Below, one piece after another: positions 6,514 through 33,148 of a stretch of DNA of 33,148 nucleotides (position 1 is the stretch's first letter; each line of letters begins with the position of its first letter). The stretch covers positions 1 to 33,148 of the forward strand of contig CAJWKT010000015.1 of NCBI GenBank assembly GCA_913041665.1. The letters are read 5' to 3'. A program made the position numbers and the translations under genes. The notes below the pieces were generated by a model. It was not told the DNA's origin. It was given only the letters and a program-made list of their open reading frames with translations, and did no database searches. Source of the stretch: an uncultured Gammaproteobacteria bacterium (GTDB lineage: Bacteria; Pseudomonadota; Gammaproteobacteria; Steroidobacterales; Rariloculaceae).

Positions 6514-7716
6514 GTGACTGGGGCGCGATCTTGGCATAGTACCGACATGACCCCAGAACTTCGACTGAATCAACATAATAGCATTCTTGAATTAGATGCT
6601 CTGTCCTGGAATCAGCTAGCGGGAGATTCGCCTTTTTTACGCCATGAGTTCCTTGCAGCCCTAGAAAGAACGGGCTGCGTAGATGGGGAAACCGCTTGGC
6701 AATCTAGACATCTAACGGTCACAGACCATGCAAACAAACTCTTGGGGGCGTTGCCTTTGTATATAAAATACAATTCACTCGGAGAGTATGTATTTGACTG
6801 GAGCTGGGCAGATTCTTATGACACTGCAGGCCTACCTTATTATCCAAAACTGGTATCTGCGGTTCCTTTTACGCCGACGACCGGGCGCCGGTTTTTAGTC
6901 GCACCTGAATTAGATTTCTCGAGTGTAGTGCCAGTACTTTTAAGTGGTGTACATGAGCTTGCAGATAAATTGAACGCCTCCTCCCTTCATGTCCTTTTTC
7001 CTACTGAATACGAACGGTCCTACCTAGATAGCAAGGGCATGATGGCCCGCAAAGGTTGTCAATTTCACTGGCATAACCACGGTTACAGTCATTTTGATGA
7101 TTTTCTCAGTTGCTTCACTTCAGCAAAAAGAAAAAAAGTTAGGAGGGAGCGTAAAAGAGTTGCCGAAGCAGGCATCCAGTTTGAGCGCATGCATGGCAAT
7201 CAACTCAGTGCAGATGATTGGGAAGCGGTTTTCAGTTTTTACGCTAGAACATTTTATCGTCGAGGGCGCGCTCCATACCTTAACCGTGCTTTTTTTACCG
7301 AAATAGCACAAACGATGCCAGAAAATCTCCTGATCATTCTCGCCCGCTATGGTGGGCATCCAATTGCAGCGGCAATCTGTTTCTGTAACCAGCACACTCT
7401 TTACGGAAGATACTGGGGGTGCCTGGATGATTTTCATAGCCTTCACTTCGAGTGTTGTTACTACCAAGGCATCAGCTATTGCATTGAAGAAAAAATTCAG
7501 ACATTTGAACCTGGAACCCAAGGCGAACATAAAATAAGCCGTGGCTTCATACCTACTGCCACCTGGTCTAATCACTGGCTGGCAAATCAAGAGTTTAGTG
7601 ATGCAGTTGCAAATTTTTTGCGTCGTGAGCGCCTACATATAGATGCCTACATAGCAGAAACTGCCAGCCACACACCCTACCGCAGTGATCTACCCCTTTC
7701 TTTGCCACCCCGATGA
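6514..7716 (+). CDS. FemAB-like / GNAT-fold N-acyltransferase (PF04339/DUF482-type)
   Basis: SFKR-like SAKRKKVRRERKRV, FYARTFYRRGRAPYLNRAFF, GRYWGC and ISRGFIPTATWSNHWL motifs. Start uncertain (GTG 6514 or ATG 6550). Confidence 0.8.
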   Translation: MTGARSWHSTDMTPELRLNQHNSILELDALSWNQLAGDSPFLRHEFLAALERTGCVDGETAWQSRHLTVTDHANKLLGALPLYIKYNSLGEYVFDWSWADSYDTAGLPYYPKLVSAVPFTPTTGRRFLVAPELDFSSVVPVLLSGVHELADKLNASSLHVLFPTEYERSYLDSKGMMARKGCQFHWHNHGYSHFDDFLSCFTSAKRKKVRRERKRVAEAGIQFERMHGNQLSADDWEAVFSFYARTFYRRGRAPYLNRAFFTEIAQTMPENLLIILARYGGHPIAAAICFCNQHTLYGRYWGCLDDFHSLHFECCYYQGISYCIEEKIQTFEPGTQGEHKISRGFIPTATWSNHWLANQEFSDAVANFLRRERLHIDAYIAETASHTPYRSDLPLSLPPR

Positions 7717-8438
7717 ATACGCTGCAGTGGTTATCGGCTAACGATTCTCCGGGGGTCTTTCCTTGCCCTAACGAAGCACTAACAGATCCTAATGGGTTGC
7801 TAGCTGCGGGCGGAGATCTTAGCAGTGAACGTTTACTATTAGCTTACTCACAGGGAATTTTTCCTTGGTATGAAAAAGATCAGCCCATTTTATGGTGGTC
7901 TCCCGAACCACGTGCAGTGCTTTGGCTAAAAGAAATCAAGATCTCAAGAACACTTAATCGCAAAATACGGCGTGGAACATTTTTTGTGAGTGCTGACCGA
8001 GCCTTTAGTGATGTACTCCGAGGTTGCGCAAAAGAACGTCGTAATGGAAATGGAACCTGGATTACCAAGGAGATGGGATATGCTTATCAAAATCTTCATG
8101 ATCTTGGATGGGCACATTCCTTTGAGGTGTGGCAGGATAAAGTGCTCGTCGGTGGTCTTTATGGAGTTGGGATTGGCCAAGTTTTTTTTGGGGAGTCCAT
8201 GTTCTCTCAAAAAAGCGATGCATCAAAAGTAGCATTGGTTAAAGCAAATGAGTACTTGCAGCACCGTGGCTATAAATTAATAGACTGTCAGATATGGTCG
8301 ACACACCTGGGAAGCCTTGGAGCAAGGCTCATGCCGAGGCAAAAATTTCTTGACGTGCTCGCTCAATTTTGCGAACCTCCCGGTAACCCTGGGCCCTGGA
8401 CAAAGGGGTTCGACACATTCGCCAGGGAATCAAAATAA
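7713..8438 (+). CDS. aat: Leucyl/phenylalanyl-tRNA--protein transferase
   Basis: NGLLAAGGDLSSERLLLAYSQGIFPWYEKDQPILWWSPEPRAVL and GGLYGVGIGQVFFGESMFS hallmark motifs; ATGA overlap with upstream gene. Confidence 0.97.
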   Translation: MNTLQWLSANDSPGVFPCPNEALTDPNGLLAAGGDLSSERLLLAYSQGIFPWYEKDQPILWWSPEPRAVLWLKEIKISRTLNRKIRRGTFFVSADRAFSDVLRGCAKERRNGNGTWITKEMGYAYQNLHDLGWAHSFEVWQDKVLVGGLYGVGIGQVFFGESMFSQKSDASKVALVKANEYLQHRGYKLIDCQIWSTHLGSLGARLMPRQKFLDVLAQFCEPPGNPGPWTKGFDTFARESK

Positions 8439-11607: not shown

Positions 11608-12537
11608 ATGAATCTAGCAATACACCTCCCTAAGCTCAAGAGGCAAGCCTTGGGACGGCAAGCTAGAGTTGCGAGTCTCTGGATTCCATCCTGGGTAAGT
11701 GGCGTATTGATTATCGCAGTGACCTACAAACTAGCAGAACTGACGTGGATATTGCTACCAGAAGGATCATCACCTCCCCAACAGACCCTCGCTCCCGCGC
11801 CCCCCTTACCCCAGCCTTTGAGCAAGGTGGGGCCAAATGCGGATATTGGTAACCAGATAATTGAGGCACACCTCTTCGGTATTGCGCCCTCTGAGTCTCT
11901 TGGACCAATGACTGAGACAATAATAGAAGCTCCGGAAACTACCTTAAGTCTGAAACTAGCGGGTATGGTTAGTGTATCGGGTGGGGAGGACCAATACAGT
12001 AGCGCAATTATCGTTAGTGGTAACGGGGAACAAAAAACTTATCAAATAGGTCAAACTATCGACGGTAGTGGTGGAGCTAGGCTGCATTCTGTGCCCAACA
12101 ACCGTGTATTAGTTGCTCGTGCTGGCCAGCTGGAAAGCTTGAGTTTGCCTAAAAAGGAATCTGGAAATTCCCTTACAGTTGTCCCAAGAGTTGCAAGAGT
12201 AGCTACAACCACACCAGTTCGCGAAATAATCAGCCCTGATGCATCTAGGATTACCGATATCATTCGGGTCGCACCACACATCGAGCAAGGGCAGATGGTC
12301 GGTTTTCGGGTCACTCCGGGCAAAGAACAACAGCAATTTACCTTGCTAGGTCTATTGGCCGGTGATGTGGTAACAGATATCAACGGAACGTCTATGAATG
12401 ATCCCAGTAGAGGGATTCAGGTATTTGAGTCCTTAGGGGAAGGCACTATTGCGAATGTGACCGTTATACGAGAGGGAGAAACTCAAGTCTTAGCGGTCGA
12501 CACAAGCCAGTTAGGTAACTTATTGGATAACCGCTAG
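11608..12537 (+). CDS. gspC: Type II secretion system protein GspC
   Basis: Single N-terminal TM, HR-like region, C-terminal PDZ-like domain (GLLAGDVVTDINGTSMNDPSRGIQVF); directly upstream of gspD. Confidence 0.88.
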   Translation: MNLAIHLPKLKRQALGRQARVASLWIPSWVSGVLIIAVTYKLAELTWILLPEGSSPPQQTLAPAPPLPQPLSKVGPNADIGNQIIEAHLFGIAPSESLGPMTETIIEAPETTLSLKLAGMVSVSGGEDQYSSAIIVSGNGEQKTYQIGQTIDGSGGARLHSVPNNRVLVARAGQLESLSLPKKESGNSLTVVPRVARVATTTPVREIISPDASRITDIIRVAPHIEQGQMVGFRVTPGKEQQQFTLLGLLAGDVVTDINGTSMNDPSRGIQVFESLGEGTIANVTVIREGETQVLAVDTSQLGNLLDNR

Positions 12538-12555
12538 CAGTTACGGAATATCACT

Positions 12556-14499
12556 ATGAATACACTACGCAGCCGAAGCTTGAAGACATTCTGGCCCTTT
12601 ATTGTTGTGCTATTGCTGCACGGACCACTCAAAATAACATTGGCCCAGCAAGCAGGTAACCTACAAATAATGCCTAACTACAGGCAAGCAGATATTCAAC
12701 AAATAATCGAAGCGGTTGGTGAAGTTACTGGGAAGAATTTTGTAGTTGACCCTAGGGTACAAGCCCAAGTTACTTTGCTGTCCTTCTCGCCCATGACCCC
12801 GGATGCTTTCTATGACACTTTTTTAGCAGCACTTCAAGTGCATGGATATGTAGCACTAGACTCAGGCGATATAGTGAAAATTGTTCCTGATGCAAATGCA
12901 AGACAGCTGCCGGGAGCTCCTCCCGGCTCTACTGGAGATCAACTCATCACTCAAACGGTAAGGCTAGAAAACGTTGGGGCCGCGCAGTTAGTGCCCATTC
13001 TCCGGCCGCTAATTCCCCAATATGGACACCTAGCGGCACACACGACATCTAACATGCTGATAATCGCCGACCGGGCCGCAAATGTAGCCCGAATGCTCAA
13101 CATCGTGGCAAGAATTGACCAAGCAGGAAATGAAGAGATCGAAATCATTCCACTTGAAAATGCCTCTGCTAGTCAGATTGTTCGCATGCTAAGTGCGCTT
13201 AACCAAGCTTCAGCAGCAGCCGGTAACGCTCCTGGTGTCCAGTTAGCCGCTGACGAAAGAACGAACAGCTTACTCCTGAGTGGAGCTCAGTCCGGCCGAT
13301 TGCGATATAGGGCCCTAATTGCTCACCTGGACACTCCGACAGATGACGGCGGAGATACTCGCGTTCGCTATCTAAACTATGCTGACTCTGAGGATTTGGC
13401 AACCAATCTCCAGGCGCAATTTGGGGCTCTAGGTGAAGGGGGAGCAGGTGGTACATCCCAGGCAATCACCATCTGGTCTGATGCTCCGACAAACGCACTT
13501 GTAATCAATGCACCTGCAAATATCCTTCAGGATATGAATTCAGTTATCGACCGGCTTGATATCCCGCGCGCTCAGGTAAAAGTTGACGCAATTATCGTAG
13601 AGGTTACAGAAGATAAGGCTGCCGAATTTGGTGTAACTTGGGCTATCGAGGCTGCGCAAGACAACATTGGCATTGGTCTCACTAATTTTCCCGCAACGAG
13701 CACCGGTATTGCTCAGGTAGCAGCAGCCACTCAGAGCGATATACCAAACGCTTCTCTGGCACCTCAAGGAATTAGTTTCGGTGTGGGTAGAATTAATAGG
13801 ACTGAAGCAAGTTGGGCGACTATCTTGACCGCGCTAAAGGGAGATGCCACTACTAACATCATCTCAACACCGTCCATCGTAACTATGGATAACGAACAGG
13901 CAGAAATTTCAGTTGGCCAAGAGGTACCTTTTCTGACTGGCCAATTTACTGCTACAGGGGCAGCGCAGGGAGCAATTAATCCTTTCCAAACTATTCAACG
14001 CCAAGCAATTGGCACAAGTTTGACAATTACGCCCCAGATTAACGAAGGAACAGGCGTTAAGCTTAATATCGAGCAAAAGACTTCAAGCATTAGTGCAGGT
14101 GCCGCCGGAGCAGTAGATATTATTACCAATAATCGAACCATCACAACTTCGGTATTCGTAGAAGATGGCGAAATATTAGTTCTAGGTGGATTAATTAATG
14201 ATCAGCTCCTGGAAACCGAACAACGGGTACCGGTGCTAGGACGAATACCACTCCTTGGTTGGCTTTTCCGGTCTAGCTCAACAGAGAAGGTAAAAACCAA
14301 CCTAATGGTTTTTATTCGACCAACAATCCTTAGGGACAATATACAGGCACGCTTCGAGACCGATGCAAAATATCAATACATCCGAGACTTACAATTAGAG
14401 CAAGCAGAAGAGCCTGTCCAACTTATGAGAGGCGCGAGTCGTCCGATTCTTCCCGAACTACCACTGCTGCCGGAAGAGGTCGATGAGGATGGAAACTAA
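12556..14499 (+). CDS. gspD: Type II secretion system secretin GspD
   Basis: N-domains plus secretin domain ([58 protein letters not shown]). Confidence 0.96.
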
Positions 14500-15988
14500 C
14501 ACCGAAATTACTGAAGAAAAGAATCGCCTGACTGACGGGAAGCTAAGTCTTCCGTTTGCGTTTGCGAAACGACACGGTGTACTTGTGGAGAAAGCAAATG
14601 ATGGCTGTATCTCAGCAATTTATCGCGAAGGATCCTCCTACTTAAGTCTTGCTGAAGTACGGCGGTACGCTAAAGGTCCCGTACATTTTTCCATTGTAGA
14701 TCCAGATACTTTTGATGCCCGACTTCAGGTCGCTTATGAAAGTGGTGCTACCAGAACTATGATGGAAGGCATAGACGACGAAACGGATCTCCTTGAAATA
14801 GCTCAACAACTCCCGGAACCATCAGATCTATTAGAAAGCGAAGATGAGGCCCCAATCATTCGGCTCATTAATGCTGTACTTACCGAGGCGGTAAAGAAAA
14901 ATGCCTCTGATATACACATCGAACCCTATGAGAAACGTTTAGTCTTAAGATTTCGTATCGATGGTGTGCTCCAAGAGGTCCTTCAGTCTCGTCGTGCGGT
15001 AGCGCCCCTAGTAGTATCCAGAATAAAAGTGATGTCAAAGCTAGATATTGCTGAAAAACGGCTACCTCAGGACGGGCGAATGTCACTTCGCGTTGCGGGC
15101 AGGGCCGTGGATGTGCGGGTCTCCACGATTCCATCAGGACACGGGGAAAGAGTCGTGCTCCGATTACTAGATAAACAGGCTGGTCGATTGAATCTTGAGC
15201 ATTTGGGAATGTCAAAAAATAACCAAAGAGTTGTAGATGAAATTATGCACCGACCTCACGGCATTCTGTTGGTGACGGGCCCCACAGGATCAGGAAAAAC
15301 CACAACACTTTATGCGGCGCTCGAACGTATCAACGATCTCAGTCGAAATATTTTGACAGTGGAAGATCCCATTGAATACTTCATGGAAGGTATTGGACAA
15401 ACTCAAGTTAATAGGAAGGTGGAAATGACTTTTGCGCGAGGCCTACGGGCAATTCTGCGCCAAGATCCTGATGTAGTTATGGTTGGTGAAATCCGGGACC
15501 TGGAAACAGCAGAAATCGCCATACGAGCAAGTCTTACGGGCCACCTTGTTCTTTCAACCTTGCATACCAACACTGCAGTAGGAGCAATCACTCGCTTGAG
15601 AGATATGGGCGTGGAGCCATTCCTTCTTTCTTCAAGCCTCATTGGAGTGCTAGCACAACGTCTTGTCAGGGTCTTAAATCCACACAACCGGCAACCTTAT
15701 CAAGCCACGAAATATGAGTGTGGCATACTAAACGCTGATCCTTCTGAGCCCCCAACCCTTTATCGCCCCTCCTCCAACGAAACTGGTTACCAGGGACGCA
15801 GTGGGATTTACGAATTGGTTAGCATTGACGATCAGATCCGCACCATGATTCATGATACTGCCGGTGAACATGAACTTGAAAGCTATGCGCGCAGCCAAGG
15901 CCCGAGCATTCTTGAAGACGGGCTAAAGAAAGTAGCCGAGGGAATTACCACACTAGAGGAAGTCCTTCGGGTAACCCGGGCCAATTAA
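14483..15988 (+). CDS. gspE: Type II secretion system ATPase GspE
   Basis: Walker [16 protein letters not shown], Asp box, Walker [39 protein letters not shown]. Confidence 0.95.
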
Positions 15989-17202
15989 TGGGCGCATACC
16001 AGTACGTCGCCCTTGATGAAGTTGGCAAAGAATGCAAAGGAATTCTTGAAGGTGAGACCCCGAGAGCAGTCCGCCAAACACTTCGCGAACGAAAGTTATT
16101 TCCCGTGGAAGTAGTGGAGACAAGGATAAAAGAAAATATTACCCGCCGAAAATTTGTCGTTAGAAAATCTATTTCAGCGTTAGACCTGGCGCTGTTTACG
16201 CGCCAGTTGGCTACCTTAGTTCGGGCAGGCCTGCCCCTAGATGAAGCACTTCAAGCCGTCAGTGAGCATTCAGAAAAAGTTCGCATTAAAAACATCGTAC
16301 TGGGTGTTAGAGCTAAAGTCCTAAGTGGCCACACTTTAGCCGCGAGCCTAGATGATTTTCGTAAAATCTTTCCTGCCGTCTACCGAGCCACGGTAGCGGC
16401 GGGTGAACAATCAGGACGCTTGGACACAATCCTTGACCGTCTAGCAGAGTACACTGAATCTCGTCATAGCTTACGTCAGAAAATTAATCATGCGCTGATT
16501 TATCCAGTGGTACTTACGAGCCTATCCTTAGCCATTATTGTCCTTATGCTTGTGTACGTAGTACCAAAAGTGGTTGGTGTATTTCAAACTAGCGGACAAA
16601 GCCTACCGATGCTGACGCGGAGTCTAATTTGGTTTTCTGATTTTCTTCAACACTGGTGGCTTGGTATCCTCGGAGCCCTAGGGATACTTGTTTTTACCAT
16701 CCGCCGCTCTCTCGCCAACGAAGGAACAAAGAAACGTGCCCACAGGTGGATATTGAAAATACCCGTGCTCGGCAAAGTAAGCCGGGGGCTGAATACCGCT
16801 CGATTTACAAGAACATTTAGCATTCTAAATTCCAGTGGGGTACCAGTTCTGGAGTCGCTGCGCATCAGCGCGTCTGTGGTTTCCAACCTACCTATGCGGG
16901 ATGCTGTCGAAGAGGCAGCAATGCGTGTACGTGAAGGTAGTGCCATTGGTCATGCGCTGAATAAATCTGGGGTATTCCCAGCAATGAGTATTCATCTGAT
17001 CTCAAGTGGTGAGGTAAGTGGGGAGTTAGACAGCATGTTAGAAAAGGCGGCTACTCACCAAGAAAAAGAAATGGATAGCACTCTGACTACCATGCTTAAC
17101 CTACTTGAGCCCATTCTCATTATCTTTATGGGGCTTATAGTCTTGGTCATTGTGATGGCAGTACTACTGCCTATTTTTCAAATTAACCAGCTGATCCTCT
17201 AA
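15988..17202 (+). CDS. gspF: Type II secretion system inner-membrane protein GspF
   Basis: Two T2SSF domains (LALFTRQLATLVRAGLPLDEALQAV; FTRTFSILNSSGVPVLESLRIS), TM helices; TAATG overlap with gspE. Confidence 0.95.
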   Translation: MGAYQYVALDEVGKECKGILEGETPRAVRQTLRERKLFPVEVVETRIKENITRRKFVVRKSISALDLALFTRQLATLVRAGLPLDEALQAVSEHSEKVRIKNIVLGVRAKVLSGHTLAASLDDFRKIFPAVYRATVAAGEQSGRLDTILDRLAEYTESRHSLRQKINHALIYPVVLTSLSLAIIVLMLVYVVPKVVGVFQTSGQSLPMLTRSLIWFSDFLQHWWLGILGALGILVFTIRRSLANEGTKKRAHRWILKIPVLGKVSRGLNTARFTRTFSILNSSGVPVLESLRISASVVSNLPMRDAVEEAAMRVREGSAIGHALNKSGVFPAMSIHLISSGEVSGELDSMLEKAATHQEKEMDSTLTTMLNLLEPILIIFMGLIVLVIVMAVLLPIFQINQLIL

Positions 17203-17214
17203 AGTAAGAAAACT

Positions 17215-17637
17215 CTACTCACCTGCTCGCCTAATCCCAGTACCGCCTCCCGAAAATATAGCAACGTCTCCGTTGGGAAACTCGGCTCGCGACAAACGCA
17301 TAAAGTTTGGTTCAGTTAGACCGGGTGCCCCAGCAACTAGTTTTAGTTTGTCTCCGGGACGGAACATTTCATTCCCTATGCCTGAACGCCTCAAATTGTT
17401 GGCACTTGCAAGTTCCGCACTCCATTCCATTTCGTTGCCATCATCATCTGTAACTAGGTAGATGAGCCTCCCGTGGGGATTAAATAATTGATAATCCACA
17501 ACCGTAACGTTTTCATGTTGCAACTCGACATTGAGGTCGAAATAAACACCCCCATTGTGATGCGCCGTTGCAGAAAAACCAGCAAGTGATATTAAAATCA
17601 CCAGGGATAGGCATGCACTAAGATATCTCATGGCCAT
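17215..17637 (-). CDS. Secreted DUF6152-like protein
   Basis: Signal peptide MAMRYLSACLSLVILISLAGFSATA then HHNGGVYFD, NPHGRL, EWSAELASANNLRRSG. Start set at internal ATG just downstream of neighbouring stop. Confidence 0.7.
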   Translation of the reverse strand: MAMRYLSACLSLVILISLAGFSATAHHNGGVYFDLNVELQHENVTVVDYQLFNPHGRLIYLVTDDDGNEMEWSAELASANNLRRSGIGNEMFRPGDKLKLVAGAPGLTEPNFMRLSRAEFPNGDVAIFSGGGTGIRRAGE

Positions 17638-17650
17638 TGCGTCTCCATTT

Positions 17651-18298
17651 TTAACCGAGGCCCCCGAATTCCGGGATACACTCATACTCCCAAATTTCAC
17701 CGTCCGGCGCAAAAATCCACCGTCCATTTACTACATACGGCTCCTCATAATAACGCGAGTCATGCACTTCTCCTGTAAAGGTTAATACATCCCCGTCACG
17801 ACTATAGCGCTCCAATACGTAGGATGATTCATCACCTGAAAAAGGAAAACCGGCTGTCCATACATAATTGTCCGGCGACATATGAGTAGTCTTAATTACT
17901 AAAGTCTCGCCCTCCCAATGACCTGTCGAGTAACCAATAAGCGACGGTAACCAATGATCAGGCGCCTGTCGGCCATCCATGAAAACACGGCGCACCTGAT
18001 GAAAATGTTCATAGAGGATCAAAATTTGATGGTCTTGCTGCACAATTTCTATCGGGTATGGATCTACCAAGCCCAAAGGGATTCCGGGCATCAGGCACCG
18101 TAGGGTCGGATCCTTGTCTGCGCCAAAATCCTCAAACTCGGCTTGTCCCTCCGGGGTAAGCTTGACATCGCTTGGCAAAGGCTGACCCATACGCCGTGGA
18201 TGTTGCGCGTTCCAGATTCCTTGAAAATCAGCCTGAGCAAAAGCCGTTCCAGCAATCAATATCGCCAAAAAAACCATGCAGATTCTATTGATACGCAT
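17651..18298 (-). CDS. Secreted protein of unknown function (DFQGIW... / CLMPGIP...PYP / YSTGHWEGETLVIKTTHM motifs)
   Basis: Signal peptide MRINRICMVFLAILIAGTAFAQA; homologous by eye to the C-terminal half of the 18477-19532 protein. Confidence 0.7.
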   Translation of the reverse strand: MRINRICMVFLAILIAGTAFAQADFQGIWNAQHPRRMGQPLPSDVKLTPEGQAEFEDFGADKDPTLRCLMPGIPLGLVDPYPIEIVQQDHQILILYEHFHQVRRVFMDGRQAPDHWLPSLIGYSTGHWEGETLVIKTTHMSPDNYVWTAGFPFSGDESSYVLERYSRDGDVLTFTGEVHDSRYYEEPYVVNGRWIFAPDGEIWEYECIPEFGGLG

Positions 18299-18476
18299 TT
18301 TTTCTCCCATAGCTGCAAAGACTGCAATATTTCATTCTCAGGCTCTATATCTTAATAATGATTCAAACATAAAGAAAACAGAACCAGAGGATATAATAAC
18401 TATACCGTGGCTCTTTGGGATACAGCTACAAAAAATGTTAAACATCCGCGCACGCTTGAATAATGAGGTGAATAAT

Positions 18477-19532
18477 ATGTACACCCAAAAAATAGGTGTA
18501 TTAGCAATATTAGGGATCTTACCGATGGTGTCGTCGGCCCACCATAACGTCGGAGCAAACTTTGATCCGAGCACTACAAAGGAACTCGAAGGTGAAATCA
18601 CTAACATACTCTGGCGAAATCCACATATAGCCTTCACCCTTGGGGTTAAAGACAATACCGGCAGACAGACCGAATGGAACATAGAAACCCATTCTTTGAG
18701 CATTATGCGGCGGATGGACGTCGCCGAACCGTTTGTTGCAGTTGGAGATACGGTGAAGGTAGCTGGCTGGCCAGCACGGCGTGACCAAGGAATGTTTGCT
18801 AATAATATGCTTCTTCCTAGCGGAGAAGAATTCGTTTTTACCTTCTCCCCAAAACCCGCAGATCTTCGATGGTCAGATCGGTTATGGGGAACTAATGAAC
18901 GATGGTTCGCGGAGGGCGGTAACACATCAGCATCGGAGCGTGGCATTTTCCGAATCTGGAGTACCACATTTTCCGCCAAAGCACAGGCCGTACCTAGTGA
19001 AGCTGCACGCACTGGATTCTTGAACCTGCGAGACTACCCGCTCACGACTGAAGCGCGTGCACTACAAAAAACGTTTGACCCAATAACAGATGATCCACTC
19101 CTTAACTGCGGACTGAAAGGTATGCCTGGGATCATGAACAATCCATATCCCATGGAATTTGTGGATCGCGGAGACACAATCGAGATGCGCATAGAAGAGT
19201 ACGATACCATCCGGATAATCCATATGAACGACCAAACCGTTCTGGAGCCGGAACCCTCAATCTATGGCCATTCTACGGGATACTGGGACGATGAGACCTT
19301 AGTCGTACAAACATCGCATAACAACTGGGGACATTTTCAAGGCAGAGGCATTCGAACCAGCAGTGATATCAGTTTCATAGAGCAATTCACACCTACACGG
19401 GATGGAAGTAGGCTTGAATATCAATTAATAGTTGCGGACCCGGCTACGTTTACCGAACCGGTAGAACTTAAAAAGGCCTGGGTCTGGTTACCCGATGTTA
19501 CGGTTGAGCCATACAACTGCATAACAGACTAA
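18477..19532 (+). CDS. Secreted two-domain protein: DUF6152-like N-terminal domain fused to the unknown-function C-terminal domain
   Basis: MYTQKIGVLAILGILPMVSSA|HHNVGANFD..., NPHIAFTL, TEWNIETHSLSIMRRM; then DPLLNCGLKGMPGIMNNPYPMEF...IYGHSTGYWDDETLVVQTSHN. Start set at ATG 18477 with GAGGTG upstream. Confidence 0.7.
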   Translation: MYTQKIGVLAILGILPMVSSAHHNVGANFDPSTTKELEGEITNILWRNPHIAFTLGVKDNTGRQTEWNIETHSLSIMRRMDVAEPFVAVGDTVKVAGWPARRDQGMFANNMLLPSGEEFVFTFSPKPADLRWSDRLWGTNERWFAEGGNTSASERGIFRIWSTTFSAKAQAVPSEAARTGFLNLRDYPLTTEARALQKTFDPITDDPLLNCGLKGMPGIMNNPYPMEFVDRGDTIEMRIEEYDTIRIIHMNDQTVLEPEPSIYGHSTGYWDDETLVVQTSHNNWGHFQGRGIRTSSDISFIEQFTPTRDGSRLEYQLIVADPATFTEPVELKKAWVWLPDVTVEPYNCITD

Positions 19533-26661: not shown

Positions 26662-28968
26662 ATGAAACGAATGCTAGTAAATGCAACTCAGCAAGAAGAG
26701 TTGCGAGTAGCCATAGTCGATGGCCAGAAACTTTACGATCTTGATATTGAGGTACCTTCTCGCCAGCAACGGAAAGCAAATATATACAAAGGGCGTATAA
26801 CCCACATAGAACCGAGCCTAGAGGCTGCCTTCATAGAATACGGAGCCCAGCGTCATGGGTTTCTTCCGCTGAAAGAGATTTCTCGGGAATACTTTGTACG
26901 CGAACTCGAAGATGGGGAGCGCCCACAAATCAGAGATGTCCTCAAAGAGGGCCAAGAGATCGTTGTTCAGGTAGAGAAAGAAGAGCGCGGGACCAAGGGC
27001 GCTGCGCTCACTACCTTTATTAGCCTTGCCGGGCGATTCCTAGTGCTTATGCCAAATAATTCACGAGTCGGTGGTGTCTCGCGACGAATCGTCGGTGAAG
27101 ATAGAGAAATCGTGCGCCAATCACTCGCGGACTTGGATCTACCAAACGAAATGGGCTGCATTGTGCGAACTGCTGGGGTAGGTAGAAGTAAAGAGGAACT
27201 TAAGTGGGATCTGGATTACTTGCTTAGCGTGTGGGAAGCGATCAAGCAAGTAGTTGTGAAGCGCGCTTCTCCGTTTCTTGTTTACCAAGAGGGTAGTGCA
27301 GTCGTACGAGCAGTTAGAGATCACTTCTCTAATGAAGTAGGAGAAATTTTAATTGATGACCCAAGTATATACGAAGAAGCCCGTGATTTCGTTGGGCGCG
27401 TGATGCCTCATAACCTTAACAAGGTTAAGTACTATGAAGATGCGACTGTTCCACTTTTTACACGCTTTCAAATTGAAAACCAAATTGAATCGGCATTTAG
27501 ACACAGTGTGTCTTTGCCCTCTGGTGGTAGCATAGTTATTGATCCTACGGAAGCTATGACGGCTATTGACATAAACTCGGGTAAATCAACAAAAGGCGAC
27601 GACATTGAGGAAACAGCGTTAAGTACGAATTTAGAATCAGCCGATGAAATAGCTCGACAATTAAGAATTCGGGACCTAGGTGGCCTGATAGTGGTGGACT
27701 TTATCGATATGGGACCACAACGAAATCAGCGTGATGTCGAAAACAGGCTACGCGAAGCGGTACATAGGGATAGGGCCCGGATTCAAATCGGCCGAATATC
27801 TCGATTCGGACTACTGGAAATGTCCCGTCAAAGACTAAGGCCTTCGCTGGAAGAAACAACTCAGCCAGTTTGCCCGCGTTGCAATGGCATTGGAAATGTA
27901 CGCAGCGTTGAGTCGCTTGCACTAGCAGTTCTGCGTCTGGTTGGTGAGGAAGCTCGAAAAGAACGTACAGCCAGAGTTATTGTCCAGGTACCAATAAACG
28001 TGAGCAATTACATATTAAATGAAAAGCGTGACTGGGTTAGCGCCATTGAGACACGCAATGAGATATTGATTATCTTGGTTGGAAATCCAGGCCTAGAAAC
28101 GCCAAATTATTCTATCAAACGCATCCGTGATGACGAGAAAGAGCTACAGGAAAATACCGCTAGAAGCTACCAAATCACTGGCCCTAAAGAAGATCCAAGT
28201 GAAATCTTTAGCGGCATGCAACACGGATTAAAGCAAAACCAGGAAGAGGCAGCGGTTTCAAACTTAATTCCCAAAGCACCAGCACCAAAACCCAGTAGGG
28301 GGGGAAAGCAATCCAGGCAACAAAATCGACAGTCATTTTGGCGTCGCTTATTTGGGTGGATGCTACCAGAAACAAAGCCTGCACAAAAATCGCCTAGTCA
28401 GCGGTCACGCCGTGGTCCTAACAGGCACCCGCACAAACGTCCTCAAAACGAGCGGCGTGGACGGGGACAAAAAAATCACTCCCAAGGACGAAATCAGGGC
28501 CGTGGTCGAAGCAAAGATCAGAGTCAACATCAGGGGCAAAAACAGAACAATCGTCCGAACCAAACGCAATCAGGCACCAATGAGCGAGGGTCAAAACAAG
28601 GCAGGGAACGCGACAACCAAGGGGAATCAAGCCGTAACCGGAAAGCCAACCGACAACAAGTGTCCAATACACAAGCCAAAGAAGCAACAGGTCCCAAGAA
28701 ACCCTCTGAAAACCTAAAACCCCAAGATAATTCGGAAAAAAAGGGTCCAGTGACTAGCACAAATTTTAATGAAGACAACCGCAAACGCGAAATGGTGAAT
28801 AACCCCCCGTCAAAAGAAGCTGCCGCCGAATCATTATCACAAACAGCTATCACTACTGAACCGACTCAGTCCACTGGGAATGAACGCATACCACATAAAC
28901 CAAAGCCCGAAGTCGAAACTACTCAAACAAGTACTGGAGACGCCCATAAGGGCCAAGATGATTCCTAA
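26662..28968 (+). CDS. rne: Ribonuclease E
   Basis: MKRMLVNATQQEELRVAIVDGQKLYDLDIE, S1 region, DFIDMG, Zn-link CPRCNGIG, Arg-rich disordered C-terminus. Start at ATG 26662 preceded by GAGGAAT. Confidence 0.96.
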   Translation: MKRMLVNATQQEELRVAIVDGQKLYDLDIEVPSRQQRKANIYKGRITHIEPSLEAAFIEYGAQRHGFLPLKEISREYFVRELEDGERPQIRDVLKEGQEIVVQVEKEERGTKGAALTTFISLAGRFLVLMPNNSRVGGVSRRIVGEDREIVRQSLADLDLPNEMGCIVRTAGVGRSKEELKWDLDYLLSVWEAIKQVVVKRASPFLVYQEGSAVVRAVRDHFSNEVGEILIDDPSIYEEARDFVGRVMPHNLNKVKYYEDATVPLFTRFQIENQIESAFRHSVSLPSGGSIVIDPTEAMTAIDINSGKSTKGDDIEETALSTNLESADEIARQLRIRDLGGLIVVDFIDMGPQRNQRDVENRLREAVHRDRARIQIGRISRFGLLEMSRQRLRPSLEETTQPVCPRCNGIGNVRSVESLALAVLRLVGEEARKERTARVIVQVPINVSNYILNEKRDWVSAIETRNEILIILVGNPGLETPNYSIKRIRDDEKELQENTARSYQITGPKEDPSEIFSGMQHGLKQNQEEAAVSNLIPKAPAPKPSRGGKQSRQQNRQSFWRRLFGWMLPETKPAQKSPSQRSRRGPNRHPHKRPQNERRGRGQKNHSQGRNQGRGRSKDQSQHQGQKQNNRPNQTQSGTNERGSKQGRERDNQGESSRNRKANRQQVSNTQAKEATGPKKPSENLKPQDNSEKKGPVTSTNFNEDNRKREMVNNPPSKEAAAESLSQTAITTEPTQSTGNERIPHKPKPEVETTQTSTGDAHKGQDDS

Positions 28969-29002
28969 AAAACTACTTGATGCCAACAATCCATTTATAA
29001 AC

Positions 29003-29470
29003 TTACACACTTGAACCAAGGTGCTTAAGAAGGCCCATGGATGCCTCTTCGACCAAGTCAAGTACACGCTCAAAGCCATCGCCATTTCCATAATACGGGT
29101 CTGGCACATTCTTTTTATTTAATTTTGGAGCGTAGTCCAAAAAAAGATGAATGCGTGATTGGTATTCCGCCGGACTCAATTTATACAGGAAAGAAAAATT
29201 TTCCTGATCCATTGCAAGTATAAACTGAAAACGCAAAAAATCTTTTTCGCTGATTCTTCGTGCGGTCAATTGGCTAATATCAACGCCGCGGTTCCTAGCA
29301 GCCTCTTGTGCGCGAAGATCTGGAGCCTCACCTACGTGGTATGAATGGGTGCCTGCCGAATCAACGTAGATCTCTAATTTAGGGGCGTGTTGCCGCAAAA
29401 TCCTTCTGAACATTCCTTCCGCTGTTGGTGATCTGCAAATATTGCCCATACAGACAAACAGAACAGACAT
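29003..29470 (-). CDS. Low molecular weight protein-tyrosine phosphatase
   Basis: VLFVCMGNICRSPTAEGMF P-loop; VPDPYYG DP motif. Start set at MSVLFVC. Confidence 0.95.
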   Translation of the reverse strand: MSVLFVCMGNICRSPTAEGMFRRILRQHAPKLEIYVDSAGTHSYHVGEAPDLRAQEAARNRGVDISQLTARRISEKDFLRFQFILAMDQENFSFLYKLSPAEYQSRIHLFLDYAPKLNKKNVPDPYYGNGDGFERVLDLVEEASMGLLKHLGSSV

Positions 29471-29648
29471 TTTTTTATTATTTTCTTGTTGCATAAAAAA
29501 TCTTTGGAAAACAAAAGACGCAGAACCACAGACATCCATCACGTTGATCTAGTTTTGGTTGTCTATGCCGTTGCCGCAGAACTAGTTCATCTTGATGTTG
29601 ACATATTCAGCTCATACGGGCGTGATTCACTACACTCGGTTTTGTGGC

Positions 29649-30662
29649 TCAAGCAGGCATCCAGCCCGTGCCAGCGCGGCAGTTGACATATTCCGCGCTG
29701 CAGTCCGTGGCGGGCAGAACCGAAACCTCATGCCACAGCTGCAATTGTAAGTTCGGGCCGTATTTCGGTGCGATCGAAAGGAACGTGTTGAAGATCTCCA
29801 GATGAGTTGGATGATGTTCCGACCAGTTCTCTAAGTCCTTCATCGTCCGGAAATATGCTATCCCACAAGAGCGTCTCAGATTACTGCCATCCAGCGCGAT
29901 ATCCTTCATGTAGCGGCAGGAATAACAATTTACCTCATCACCCTGATCGCGTAGGAAGGCCATACCAGCTTTTAATGTTGGCTCAATTGTATCTATGTAT
30001 TCGCTCAACTGTTCGTCATCGCAGTTGCTCCAGTCCTGCCCCGAGCGGATGATGCAGAGGTTTTCATGCGCTTCAACCACCACGTGGTTGCCGTTCTGTT
30101 CAACCACGCACACGAGCCCATTCGCCTCCAAAGCATCATGTGCTGACAGCGGAATACGGTCGCGCATGCCGCCCCAGTACTGGTGGTGCGGGATAGGGCC
30201 AACAGTCCCTTCGCGCATCTGGCTATAGCCATGGTCATGCACCGGGCCGGAAAAGAGTGTCTCCGTCCGATTGAATGGGATGTTCACGCATTCCTTTATC
30301 ACGCCGTAACCATCAGCATCTATGTGCTTTTTCCAAAAGGCAGTGTATGCGTCAGAGGACATTGTTGCCTTAGCTGCATCCTGATCACGCCAGTAAGCAA
30401 CGCAGGCCGTCTCATGTAATCCGCCACCCGCATCGGAGGTTAATAGATCGCAGATCTCAGCACTTTCCAGCGCGGCTTGCAGTTCTGCCATATGCGGCAT
30501 CACGTCCATACCTGCGGGATGTTGAAAGCCAACTAGGGCCATCGATACACCGGTCTGTGTATCCATAAAGGTTGAAGACCACGCAGGTACTGGCGGCTCC
30601 CACCCCTTGGGCATACGCAAGGGATAGCGCCGATCCGTTGGGATCGCCTTATTCGTCTGCAT
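29649..30662 (-). CDS. Heme-dependent aldoxime dehydratase (phenylacetaldoxime dehydratase family)
   Basis: WSEHHPTHLEIFNTF, LQLWHEVSVLPATDCSAEYVNCRAGTGWMPA, SGPVHDHGYxGxMRDRIPLS match the Oxd family pattern; start set at MQTNK overlapping upstream nitrilase. Confidence 0.9.
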   Translation of the reverse strand: MQTNKAIPTDRRYPLRMPKGWEPPVPAWSSTFMDTQTGVSMALVGFQHPAGMDVMPHMAELQAALESAEICDLLTSDAGGGLHETACVAYWRDQDAAKATMSSDAYTAFWKKHIDADGYGVIKECVNIPFNRTETLFSGPVHDHGYSQMREGTVGPIPHHQYWGGMRDRIPLSAHDALEANGLVCVVEQNGNHVVVEAHENLCIIRSGQDWSNCDDEQLSEYIDTIEPTLKAGMAFLRDQGDEVNCYSCRYMKDIALDGSNLRRSCGIAYFRTMKDLENWSEHHPTHLEIFNTFLSIAPKYGPNLQLQLWHEVSVLPATDCSAEYVNCRAGTGWMPA

Positions 30663-31668
30663 GACCCACGATCTCAAGCTCGGGAGCGTCTTCCGGAACG
30701 ACAACACTACTAGCATCATCAAAGTTCACTACCGGGCGCTGACGCCTTTTGTTGAGGAGCAAGCGCGTCACATCGGGTCGCGAATAATGCCCAGCTGGAT
30801 CTGCTGCTGCCTTTGCAAAGGCGATCATGCTCAAATCAATATCAGCCACCACAAGACCTTCTTCTGTGTGGGATAAATCCGATCCGATAGACTGACCATC
30901 CGGCGCGTAAATCCGAGTGTAGCCGCCACCAACAGGGCACAACGCCTCTTTCTCTGAGTCACCCTGACACAGTATATCCTGTTGTTCCTTGCTAACTAGC
31001 GCGCAAGCCGCAACCACAAAGCAACCTCCTTCCACTGCGTAAATCATGCTCGCACCATTATTCACTTGATGGCCAAGTGCATAGGCCCCACCTTCGTAAA
31101 GCGCGAGGTTTGGCCAAGCCGCACAGTGGATCTGCTCGTTCTGAGCATACATCGCGTATTTCGTTAGGGGCTGCAGATGCTCCCAGCAACTCAGCTGTCC
31201 AATCCGACCCAACGAAGTCTCGTTAACCACAATGTCGGAACCATCACCCTCACCAAATACTGTGCGTTCCACATGCGTGGGCTTCAGCTTACGACGGCGT
31301 TTAATAACGTCACCATTCTCATCATAATGCCACTGCGCAATATAAAGAGAACCACCTTCACGTTCGCTCAGGCCCATTGAAACCTGAATGTTATTCTTGC
31401 GCGCGGCCTCGGCAATAACCTTGTCTTCGGCAGACCTAGCCTCGATCGAACTCTCAAAATAACGGCCGACGAATTGCATTCCCCAGGCTACTGGCCCCAG
31501 CCAAATGTGATTGGGGTAACCTGGCAGCCAAGTTTCCGGGAACACGACCAACTTGGCGCTGGCAGCAGCAGCCTGTTCAATATACTTTACTGCTTTTTCG
31601 ACGCCCGCTTGCAGATCAAGAAAACAGGGCGCAGCCTGTACAGCAGCAGCTTTAAACTGTTGTGACAT
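30649..31668 (-). CDS. Nitrilase (carbon-nitrogen hydrolase family)
   Basis: Catalytic triad context FPETWLPGYP (Glu), RRKLKPTHVERTVFGEGDG (Lys), LSCWEHLQPL (Cys); 339 aa. Confidence 0.93.
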   Translation of the reverse strand: MSQQFKAAAVQAAPCFLDLQAGVEKAVKYIEQAAAASAKLVVFPETWLPGYPNHIWLGPVAWGMQFVGRYFESSIEARSAEDKVIAEAARKNNIQVSMGLSEREGGSLYIAQWHYDENGDVIKRRRKLKPTHVERTVFGEGDGSDIVVNETSLGRIGQLSCWEHLQPLTKYAMYAQNEQIHCAAWPNLALYEGGAYALGHQVNNGASMIYAVEGGCFVVAACALVSKEQQDILCQGDSEKEALCPVGGGYTRIYAPDGQSIGSDLSHTEEGLVVADIDLSMIAFAKAAADPAGHYSRPDVTRLLLNKRRQRPVVNFDDASSVVVPEDAPELEIVGHADE

Positions 31669-31759
31669 AGTTTTTCTTTTCCTTTAGATAACGTAAATAA
31701 TACGGAATACACCGTGGCCGCTTTATTAATAATTGTCTCACAGCGACCGTATCCATGAA

Positions 31760-32518
31760 TTAAGATCTACCACTTTTTATTCGCTCAAAAAAAATCTTGC
31801 GGGCAGTCTCAAGATCCTCTGGGGTGTCCACACCGCTAGGTGGTTTTTCCACCGCCTCGGCGACCAAAATATTGAATCCCAGCCAGAGCGCCCTAAGCTG
31901 CTCCAGTTTCTCGATCCTCTCCAGCTCACATGACTCAGAAGCAGCGAGCATCTTAAGAACGCGCACACGGTAAGCATAAAGCCCAATGTGGCGTTTCGGA
32001 GTTTCCTTCGTCCCATCCTCGCGAGGATGCGGTATAGGCGCACGGCTGAAATATAAGGCATTGTTTTTATTATCTGCAACTACCTTCACTGTATTAGGGT
32101 CAAGCCATTCCTCCTTCGAAGTAATCGAGGTAAACAACGTGGAAATGGATGCATCGGCTTTATTGGCTAATAGCTCAGCCGTCTGAGAAATAACAACTGG
32201 AGGTAACAATGGTTCGTCGCCCTGAACGTTTACCACGATTTGCTCATCAGGCCAACCCAATCGCTGGGCTACCTCGGCTATCCTATCAGTTCCGGTTCTA
32301 TGAGTTCCGGTGAGCTCCACATGTGCACCAATGCCGGTGCAAACATCCTTTATTCTCTCATCATCGGTAGCAATTATTACCTCGGACGCATCAGCCTGGC
32401 AGGCTGATTTATATACCCATTCGATCATAGAGCGGCCACCGATATCTACCAAAGGTTTACCAGGTAGGCGAGTTGAGGCATACCTAGCAGGAATAACAAC
32501 AATAAAATCGGCTGACAT
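31760..32518 (-). CDS. kdsB: 3-deoxy-manno-octulosonate cytidylyltransferase
   Basis: FIVVIPARYASTRLPGKPLVDIGGRSMIEWVY, VNVQGDEPLLPP, HIGLYAYR, LEQLRALWLGFNI. Confidence 0.97.
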   Translation of the reverse strand: MSADFIVVIPARYASTRLPGKPLVDIGGRSMIEWVYKSACQADASEVIIATDDERIKDVCTGIGAHVELTGTHRTGTDRIAEVAQRLGWPDEQIVVNVQGDEPLLPPVVISQTAELLANKADASISTLFTSITSKEEWLDPNTVKVVADNKNNALYFSRAPIPHPREDGTKETPKRHIGLYAYRVRVLKMLAASESCELERIEKLEQLRALWLGFNILVAEAVEKPPSGVDTPEDLETARKIFFERIKSGRS

Positions 32519-32592
32519 AATCAGTATTACTCAATTTTGGGTTGACACCCCCGTCTAATTAACGAACCGTACAAACGGGAACCAAATTCGGT

Positions 32593-33148
32593 TCATTGTT
32601 CCGCGAATTGCATCCGATAAAGAGCCTTATAGTACCCATCATAGGCTACTAACTCAGCGTGATTCCCCGTCTCAACTATTTTCCCATCCCTAAGAACCAT
32701 AATGCAGTCAGCTGTTTCTACAGTGGACAGACGATGAGCGATAACTAACGTTGTACGCCCTTTCATAAGCTGTCCAAGGGCACGCTGAATCCGACGCTCG
32801 GACTCAGTATCAAGTGACGAAGTAGCTTCATCTAAAATTAATATGTCTGGCTTTTTTACAAATGCTCGCGCAAGAGCAATTCTTTGTCTTTCACCACCGG
32901 AGAGTTTTGACCCATGCTCACCAACATTAAAATCTAAGCCTTGAGGAAGATGCTCGACAAAACTTATTGCCCCTGCTCGTCGAAGCGCATCTTTTATGTC
33001 TGCATCGAGGATTTTAAGATTGCCAAAAGTTAAATTATTTCGAACAGTATCGTGAAATAAAATAGTTTCTTGAGGAAGATATCCAATCATCTTTCTTAAA
33101 GATGATTTACTAAAATTATTAATATTTCTTCCATCAATTTCTATTGAG
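32593..33148 (-). CDS. ABC transporter ATP-binding/permease (MsbA-like), C-terminal nucleotide-binding domain; continues beyond the window
   Basis: Q-loop LPQETILFHDTVRNNLTFG, signature LSGGERQRIALARAF, Walker B ILILDEATSSLD, H-loop VIAHRLSTV. Frame is open to the window edge (SIEIDGRNINNFSKSSLRK upstream). Confidence 0.88.
   Translation of the reverse strand, partial: SIEIDGRNINNFSKSSLRKMIGYLPQETILFHDTVRNNLTFGNLKILDADIKDALRRAGAISFVEHLPQGLDFNVGEHGSKLSGGERQRIALARAFVKKPDILILDEATSSLDTESERRIQRALGQLMKGRTTLVIAHRLSTVETADCIMVLRDGKIVETGNHAELVAYDGYYKALYRMQFAEQ

Follow-up and report, generated by a model that had tools for sequence, protein, structure and literature searches.

The window, by which we mean the whole stretch of 33,148 nucleotides analyzed here, carries on its minus strand a nitrilase gene (nit) followed directly by a heme aldoxime dehydratase gene (oxd), with a housekeeping gene, kdsB, on one side and a phosphatase gene on the other (Table 1). 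A 14-nt overlap between the two genes, which the preliminary description had read from the letters, was borne out by the list of open reading frames (ORFs) and by the raw sequence, in which the oxd ATG occupies 30662-30660 and the nit TAA 30651-30649; oxd is listed as an ORF at 29649-30722 (minus strand), within which this ATG is in frame. Neither terminator-like nor promoter-like sites were found on the coding (minus) strand of the gap between kdsB and nit, no terminator-like site was found on the minus strand of the gap between oxd and the phosphatase ORF, and an Rfam scan of 28900-32600 returned no matches. The pair showed a modest GC excess (52.3% in nit and 53.8% in oxd, compared to a mean of 47.9% for the remaining window genes), with GC3 being elevated by 2.5 SD in oxd and 0.9 SD in nit, such that the GC3 of oxd was the only outlier.

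Table 1 Coordinates of the nit-oxd pair, the gaps around it and its flanking genes in the window.
Feature	Position	Strand	Details
kdsB, housekeeping gene of the host for CMP-Kdo synthase, on the upstream side	31760..32518	-	CTP_transf_3 2e-57; in 22/22 family genomes
kdsB-nit gap	31669..31759	-	91 nt; purine-rich RBS-like stretch AAAGGA ahead of nit ATG
nit (nitrilase gene)	30649..31668	-	339 aa, CN_hydrolase; E45, K127, C161
nit stop/oxd start overlap	30649..30662	-	14 nt
oxd (heme aldoxime dehydratase gene)	29649..30662	-	337 aa, Dehydratase_hem; R169, S207, H287, H311, E134
oxd stop-to-phosphatase ORF gap	29543..29648	-	106 nt
Low-molecular-weight phosphotyrosine phosphatase (PTP), downstream flank	29003..29542	-	LMWPc 4.8e-40; beside kdsB in most relatives

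Family assignments were assessed against Pfam, as the preliminary description had proposed. The nitrilase matched CN_hydrolase over nearly its full length (E = 2.7e-49), while the dehydratase (Oxd) matched Dehydratase_hem over profile positions 2-309 of 310 (E = 5.7e-79; 266 bits, cut-off 25) and thus belongs to the aldoxime dehydratase family; with matches this strong and nearly full length, neither ORF is a product of chance. Because both proteins scored below the equivalog cut-offs (250.2 bits against 502.6 for the Nit6803 family TIGR04048, and 251.7 bits against 600 for NF050090, the NCBIfam OxdA aliphatic aldoxime dehydratase), they are members of these families rather than Nit6803 or OxdA proper.

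The Glu, Lys and Cys expected of the nitrilase (E45, K127 and C161) were invariant in 15 of 15 aligned sequences, and this triad, the full-length match and the identity of its nearest relatives as nitrilases place the protein in the nitrilase branch. It matched solved nitrilases as well as cyanide-converting relatives, the closest solved nitrilase being NitA (6zby; E = 3.1e-112, about 56% identity over 307 aa), which we take to be the arylacetonitrilase of Pseudomonas fluorescens EBC191. NitA has the catalytic triad in common with the window protein but carries Ala after the catalytic Cys, where the window nitrilase and other pathway nitrilases carry Trp. The EBC191 nitrilase is active on phenylacetonitrile and indole-3-acetonitrile and is encoded without linkage to oxd (PMC8955678). 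The window's own genome contains another nitrilase-like gene (L100, G000:C125, 616-1293), whose possibly truncated product of 225 aa matches CN_hydrolase over profile positions 1-177 of 256 only; as it is short and shares about 33% identity with the nitrilase of the window, it was rejected as a pathway partner.

Oxd matched all three solved aldoxime dehydratases, OxdRE (3a15), OxdA (3w08) and OxdB (7f2y), with E values from 1.8e-59 (OxdRE) to 6e-52 and identities of 32-36%. Resemblance to proteins of solved structure is enough to establish the fold. In the alignment, S207, R169, E134, H287 and H311 corresponded to S219, R178, E143, H299 and H320 of OxdRE, and R169, S207, H287 and H311 also matched R178, S219, H299 and H320 of OxdA. 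The two His-containing motifs singled out beforehand, HPTHLEIF and LWHEVSV, are both present and supply H287 (the His of THL) and H311 (the His of WHEV), respectively. His299 of OxdRE and OxdA serves as the heme ligand, and its counterpart H287, on whose survival in the alignment the preliminary description had staked its reading, is retained. Ser219, His320 and Arg178 of OxdA serve in substrate fixation, acid-base catalysis and proton relay, respectively (PMC5391958). In a tree of 26 Oxds that included the three solved enzymes, the window protein formed one clade with those of loci L002 and L070 (support 100/99), with none of the solved enzymes inside it, while L003, L069, L074 and OxdB were long branches of unsure placement. 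Given the 32-36% identity and a clade without any solved member, the substrate could differ from those of the solved enzymes.

The pair is best read as the known bacterial aldoxime-nitrile pathway, in which an aldoxime would be converted to a nitrile and the nitrile to an acid and NH3. That the two enzymes are genetically linked elsewhere, as the preliminary description stated, is well documented (PMC8955678, PMC4342420). Oxds often share an operon with nitrilases or nitrile hydratases, and in Bacillus and Bradyrhizobium oxd has, upstream of it, a gene for a probable nitrilase and nitR, of the AraC family (PMC8955678); strain OxB-1 converts phenylacetaldoxime to phenylacetic acid and has an AraC-like gene in its cluster (PMC4342420). 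The window pair resembles the nitR-nit-oxd clusters of Bacillus sp. OxB-1 and Bradyrhizobium sp. LTSPM299 in its two enzyme families, in the inferred pathway and in the adjacency of nit upstream of oxd, on one strand and in one operon (PMC8955678, PMC4342420), but differs from them in having no AraC-type NitR, in the 14-nt overlap and in its position between kdsB and a phosphatase gene, and its Oxd is only about 32% identical to OxdB. OxdRE and OxdA, which belong to the same family by sequence and have the equivalents of R169, S207, H287 and H311, are about 35-36% identical to the window Oxd, and their clusters carry nitrile hydratase and amidase in place of a nitrilase (PMC8955678). Across 23 oxd loci, nit directly adjoined oxd in 14 (the window counted), and of the 13 other nit-oxd loci 11 had an AraC-family gene within the stretch fetched, counts that are indicative only, as loci were chosen by similarity and genome draws, and that do not make the nearby AraC gene a proven regulator of the pair. 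The nit-oxd loci without such a gene besides the window, L069 and L074, are both distant.

The absence of NitR is the main departure from the published layout. Consistent with the preliminary description, the Pfam-scanned other genes of the window included no NitR-type regulator, nitrile hydratase, amidase or cassette-type transporter. A search of the window's own genome with the L002 regulator returned no match, a weak negative given that it had no positive control, and in a bin that is 86% complete the absence of a regulator is partly an argument from silence. An HTH_18 search recovered two AraC-family genes in this genome, compared to 39 matches in the L002 genome; the N-terminal domains of the two are Cupin_6 and Arabinose_bd, and both lack the AraC_binding_2 domain carried by the L002 and L003 regulators. 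A gene annotated "transporter" comes after each of the plasmid-borne AraC-nit-oxd cassettes at L033 and L036 (5053-5928 and 5086-5907, respectively), and that of the Pantoea plasmid cassette matches Phenol_MetA_deg, a possible outer-membrane route of substrate entry that is absent from the window.

The closest cassette was that of L002, from the Geminicoccaceae metagenome-assembled genome IP29b_bin.180, which, going by its sample name and PMC9868349, came from Isopora palifera coral skeleton. Its nit and oxd are 81.7% and 70% identical to those of the window and have the identical 14-nt overlap (8001-8014), but a divergent AraC_binding_2/HTH_18 regulator lies 146 nt upstream of its nit and its flanking genes are unrelated to those of the window. 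SerRS was 50% identical between the two genomes. Distribution was patchy: among 22 sampled genomes of the window's family, the window's own was alone in having oxd, and no full-length relative of the window nitrilase was found in the 21 others, with partial matches in genome G017 and in two other stretches of the window's own genome. Horizontal transfer of the pair is likely, given protein identities of 82% and 70% against just 50% for SerRS and the absence of the cassette from the 21 family genomes, and these patterns suggest that the two aldoxime-nitrile genes move together, as one compact unit, from lineage to distant lineage. Phage carriage was not supported, as no relative occurred among viral contigs; plasmid relatives were distant (37% identity or less) but showed the AraC-nit-oxd layout. 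Repeats at the cassette ends were short, scattered and near chance; there was no signature of an insertion sequence or attachment site, and no tRNA lies close by. Discussion of the pathway has centered on soil and plant-associated bacteria, and the window extends it to a lineage whose nearest cassette relative is in a coral skeleton.

The pair lies within a cell-envelope housekeeping locus, in keeping with the preliminary description, flanked on one side by kdsB and an msbA-like ABC gene (same strand, truncated where the contig ends) and on the other by the phosphatase gene; the surrounding gene order, msbA-kdsB-PTP-rne-rluC-maf, is suggestive of Gammaproteobacteria. Comparison of the kdsB-PTP interval, also proposed there, showed that most relatives have the two genes almost side by side and that the cassette is an insertion. 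In the 16 relatives for which a single fetched stretch contained both kdsB and the phosphatase gene, the gap was at most 103 nt in 12 and 1.3-2.7 kb in four, where it holds genes unrelated to nit-oxd: a MauG-type peroxidase in L089, with a similar insert in L090, a xanthine-dehydrogenase-type subunit in L091 and a cobalamin-independent methionine-synthase-like gene in L098. These differing inserts indicate that the interval repeatedly takes up accessory genes, and its counterpart in the window (29507-31759) holds nit-oxd.

We consider it probable, at roughly 85%, that nit-oxd is a horizontally acquired two-gene operon for the aldoxime-nitrile pathway, coupled by its overlap and expressed by read-through without NitR. 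Oxd would convert R-CH=NOH to R-CN, with the Fe(II) heme bound by H287 holding the oxime nitrogen, S207 fixing the substrate and H311 acting as acid-base catalyst with the assistance of R169, and the nitrilase would then convert R-CN to R-COOH and NH3 via C161, E45 and K127. Translation of oxd would be coupled to that of nit through the overlap. With no coding-strand terminator-like site between kdsB and nit, read-through from upstream host genes is the simplest reading, and, given the lack of NitR and the place in the kdsB-phosphatase interval, expression would probably be constant. Our best guess at the substrates is arylacetaldoximes, such as phenyl- or indole-3-acetaldoxime, and the pathway may serve in detoxification and nitrogen gain. 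Our verdict is that the pair forms a compact operon for the aldoxime-nitrile pathway, without NitR and probably gained by lateral transfer, in an interval that takes up accessory genes within a cluster for outer-membrane functions. The pathway itself is known, and what is new is the NitR-less layout, the occurrence in this lineage, the kdsB-PTP location and the Oxd clade without a solved member. A bolder version is doubtful, namely that a regulator-less, constitutive pathway has been wired into the outer-membrane housekeeping operon of a probably marine bacterium, with an Oxd clade lacking a characterized member and with marine aldoximes as substrates, compounds not so far described either as nutrients of bacteria or as precursors of auxin.

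The same enzymes could instead act in biosynthesis, supplying an acid that serves as a signal, such as the auxin indole-3-acetic acid or phenylacetic acid, out of aldoximes derived from a host or alga, a reading that differs from the degradative pathway in physiological role only. The similarity of the nitrilase to NitA, taken to be the EBC191 enzyme that acts on phenylacetonitrile and indole-3-acetonitrile (PMC8955678), is compatible with this, as is the origin of the nearest cassette in a coral-skeleton sample rich in phototrophs, but no aldoxime-forming enzyme was seen among the products of the window genes, and we regard a biosynthetic role as unlikely. More doubtful still is a cassette gained recently, weakly expressed or non-adaptive, whose purpose went with the loss of its regulator and transporter. 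Such a history would fit a pair without the adjoining NitR or transporter of L033 and L036 and without the NitR of L002, in a genome whose family relatives lack the cassette; however, both frames are intact and every catalytic residue is kept despite 18-30% protein divergence from the nearest relative, which suggests that selection has kept the pair functional. An assembly chimera bringing in a cassette from another organism in the sample is highly improbable, even for a fragmented genome (173 contigs, 86% complete) and a pair with GC above its flanks, since kdsB and PTP are the very neighbors found in most relatives and two independent false joins at one gap would be needed; four relatives have other inserts there.

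There is demand for aldoxime dehydratases as catalysts that yield nitriles without cyanide, and protein-level tests cover only some two dozen of them (PMC11568032); the window Oxd differs by about 64-68% from the three solved enzymes and is naturally paired with a nitrilase.

Two further observations concern other parts of the window. lpxK is missing between msbA and kdsB in the window (32518-32593) but present there in L089, L091 and L098, the relatives read in detail, and a different contig of the same genome (G000:C106, L103) has a C-terminal piece of lpxK right at its end (6672-6926), the remaining genes of that contig resembling lptF/lptG and valyl-tRNA synthetase. Elsewhere in the window (17215-19532), two opposed ORFs, 17215-17727 on the minus and 18276-19532 on the plus strand, both match DUF6152 and adjoin the type II secretion genes gspC-D-E-F (11608-17202).
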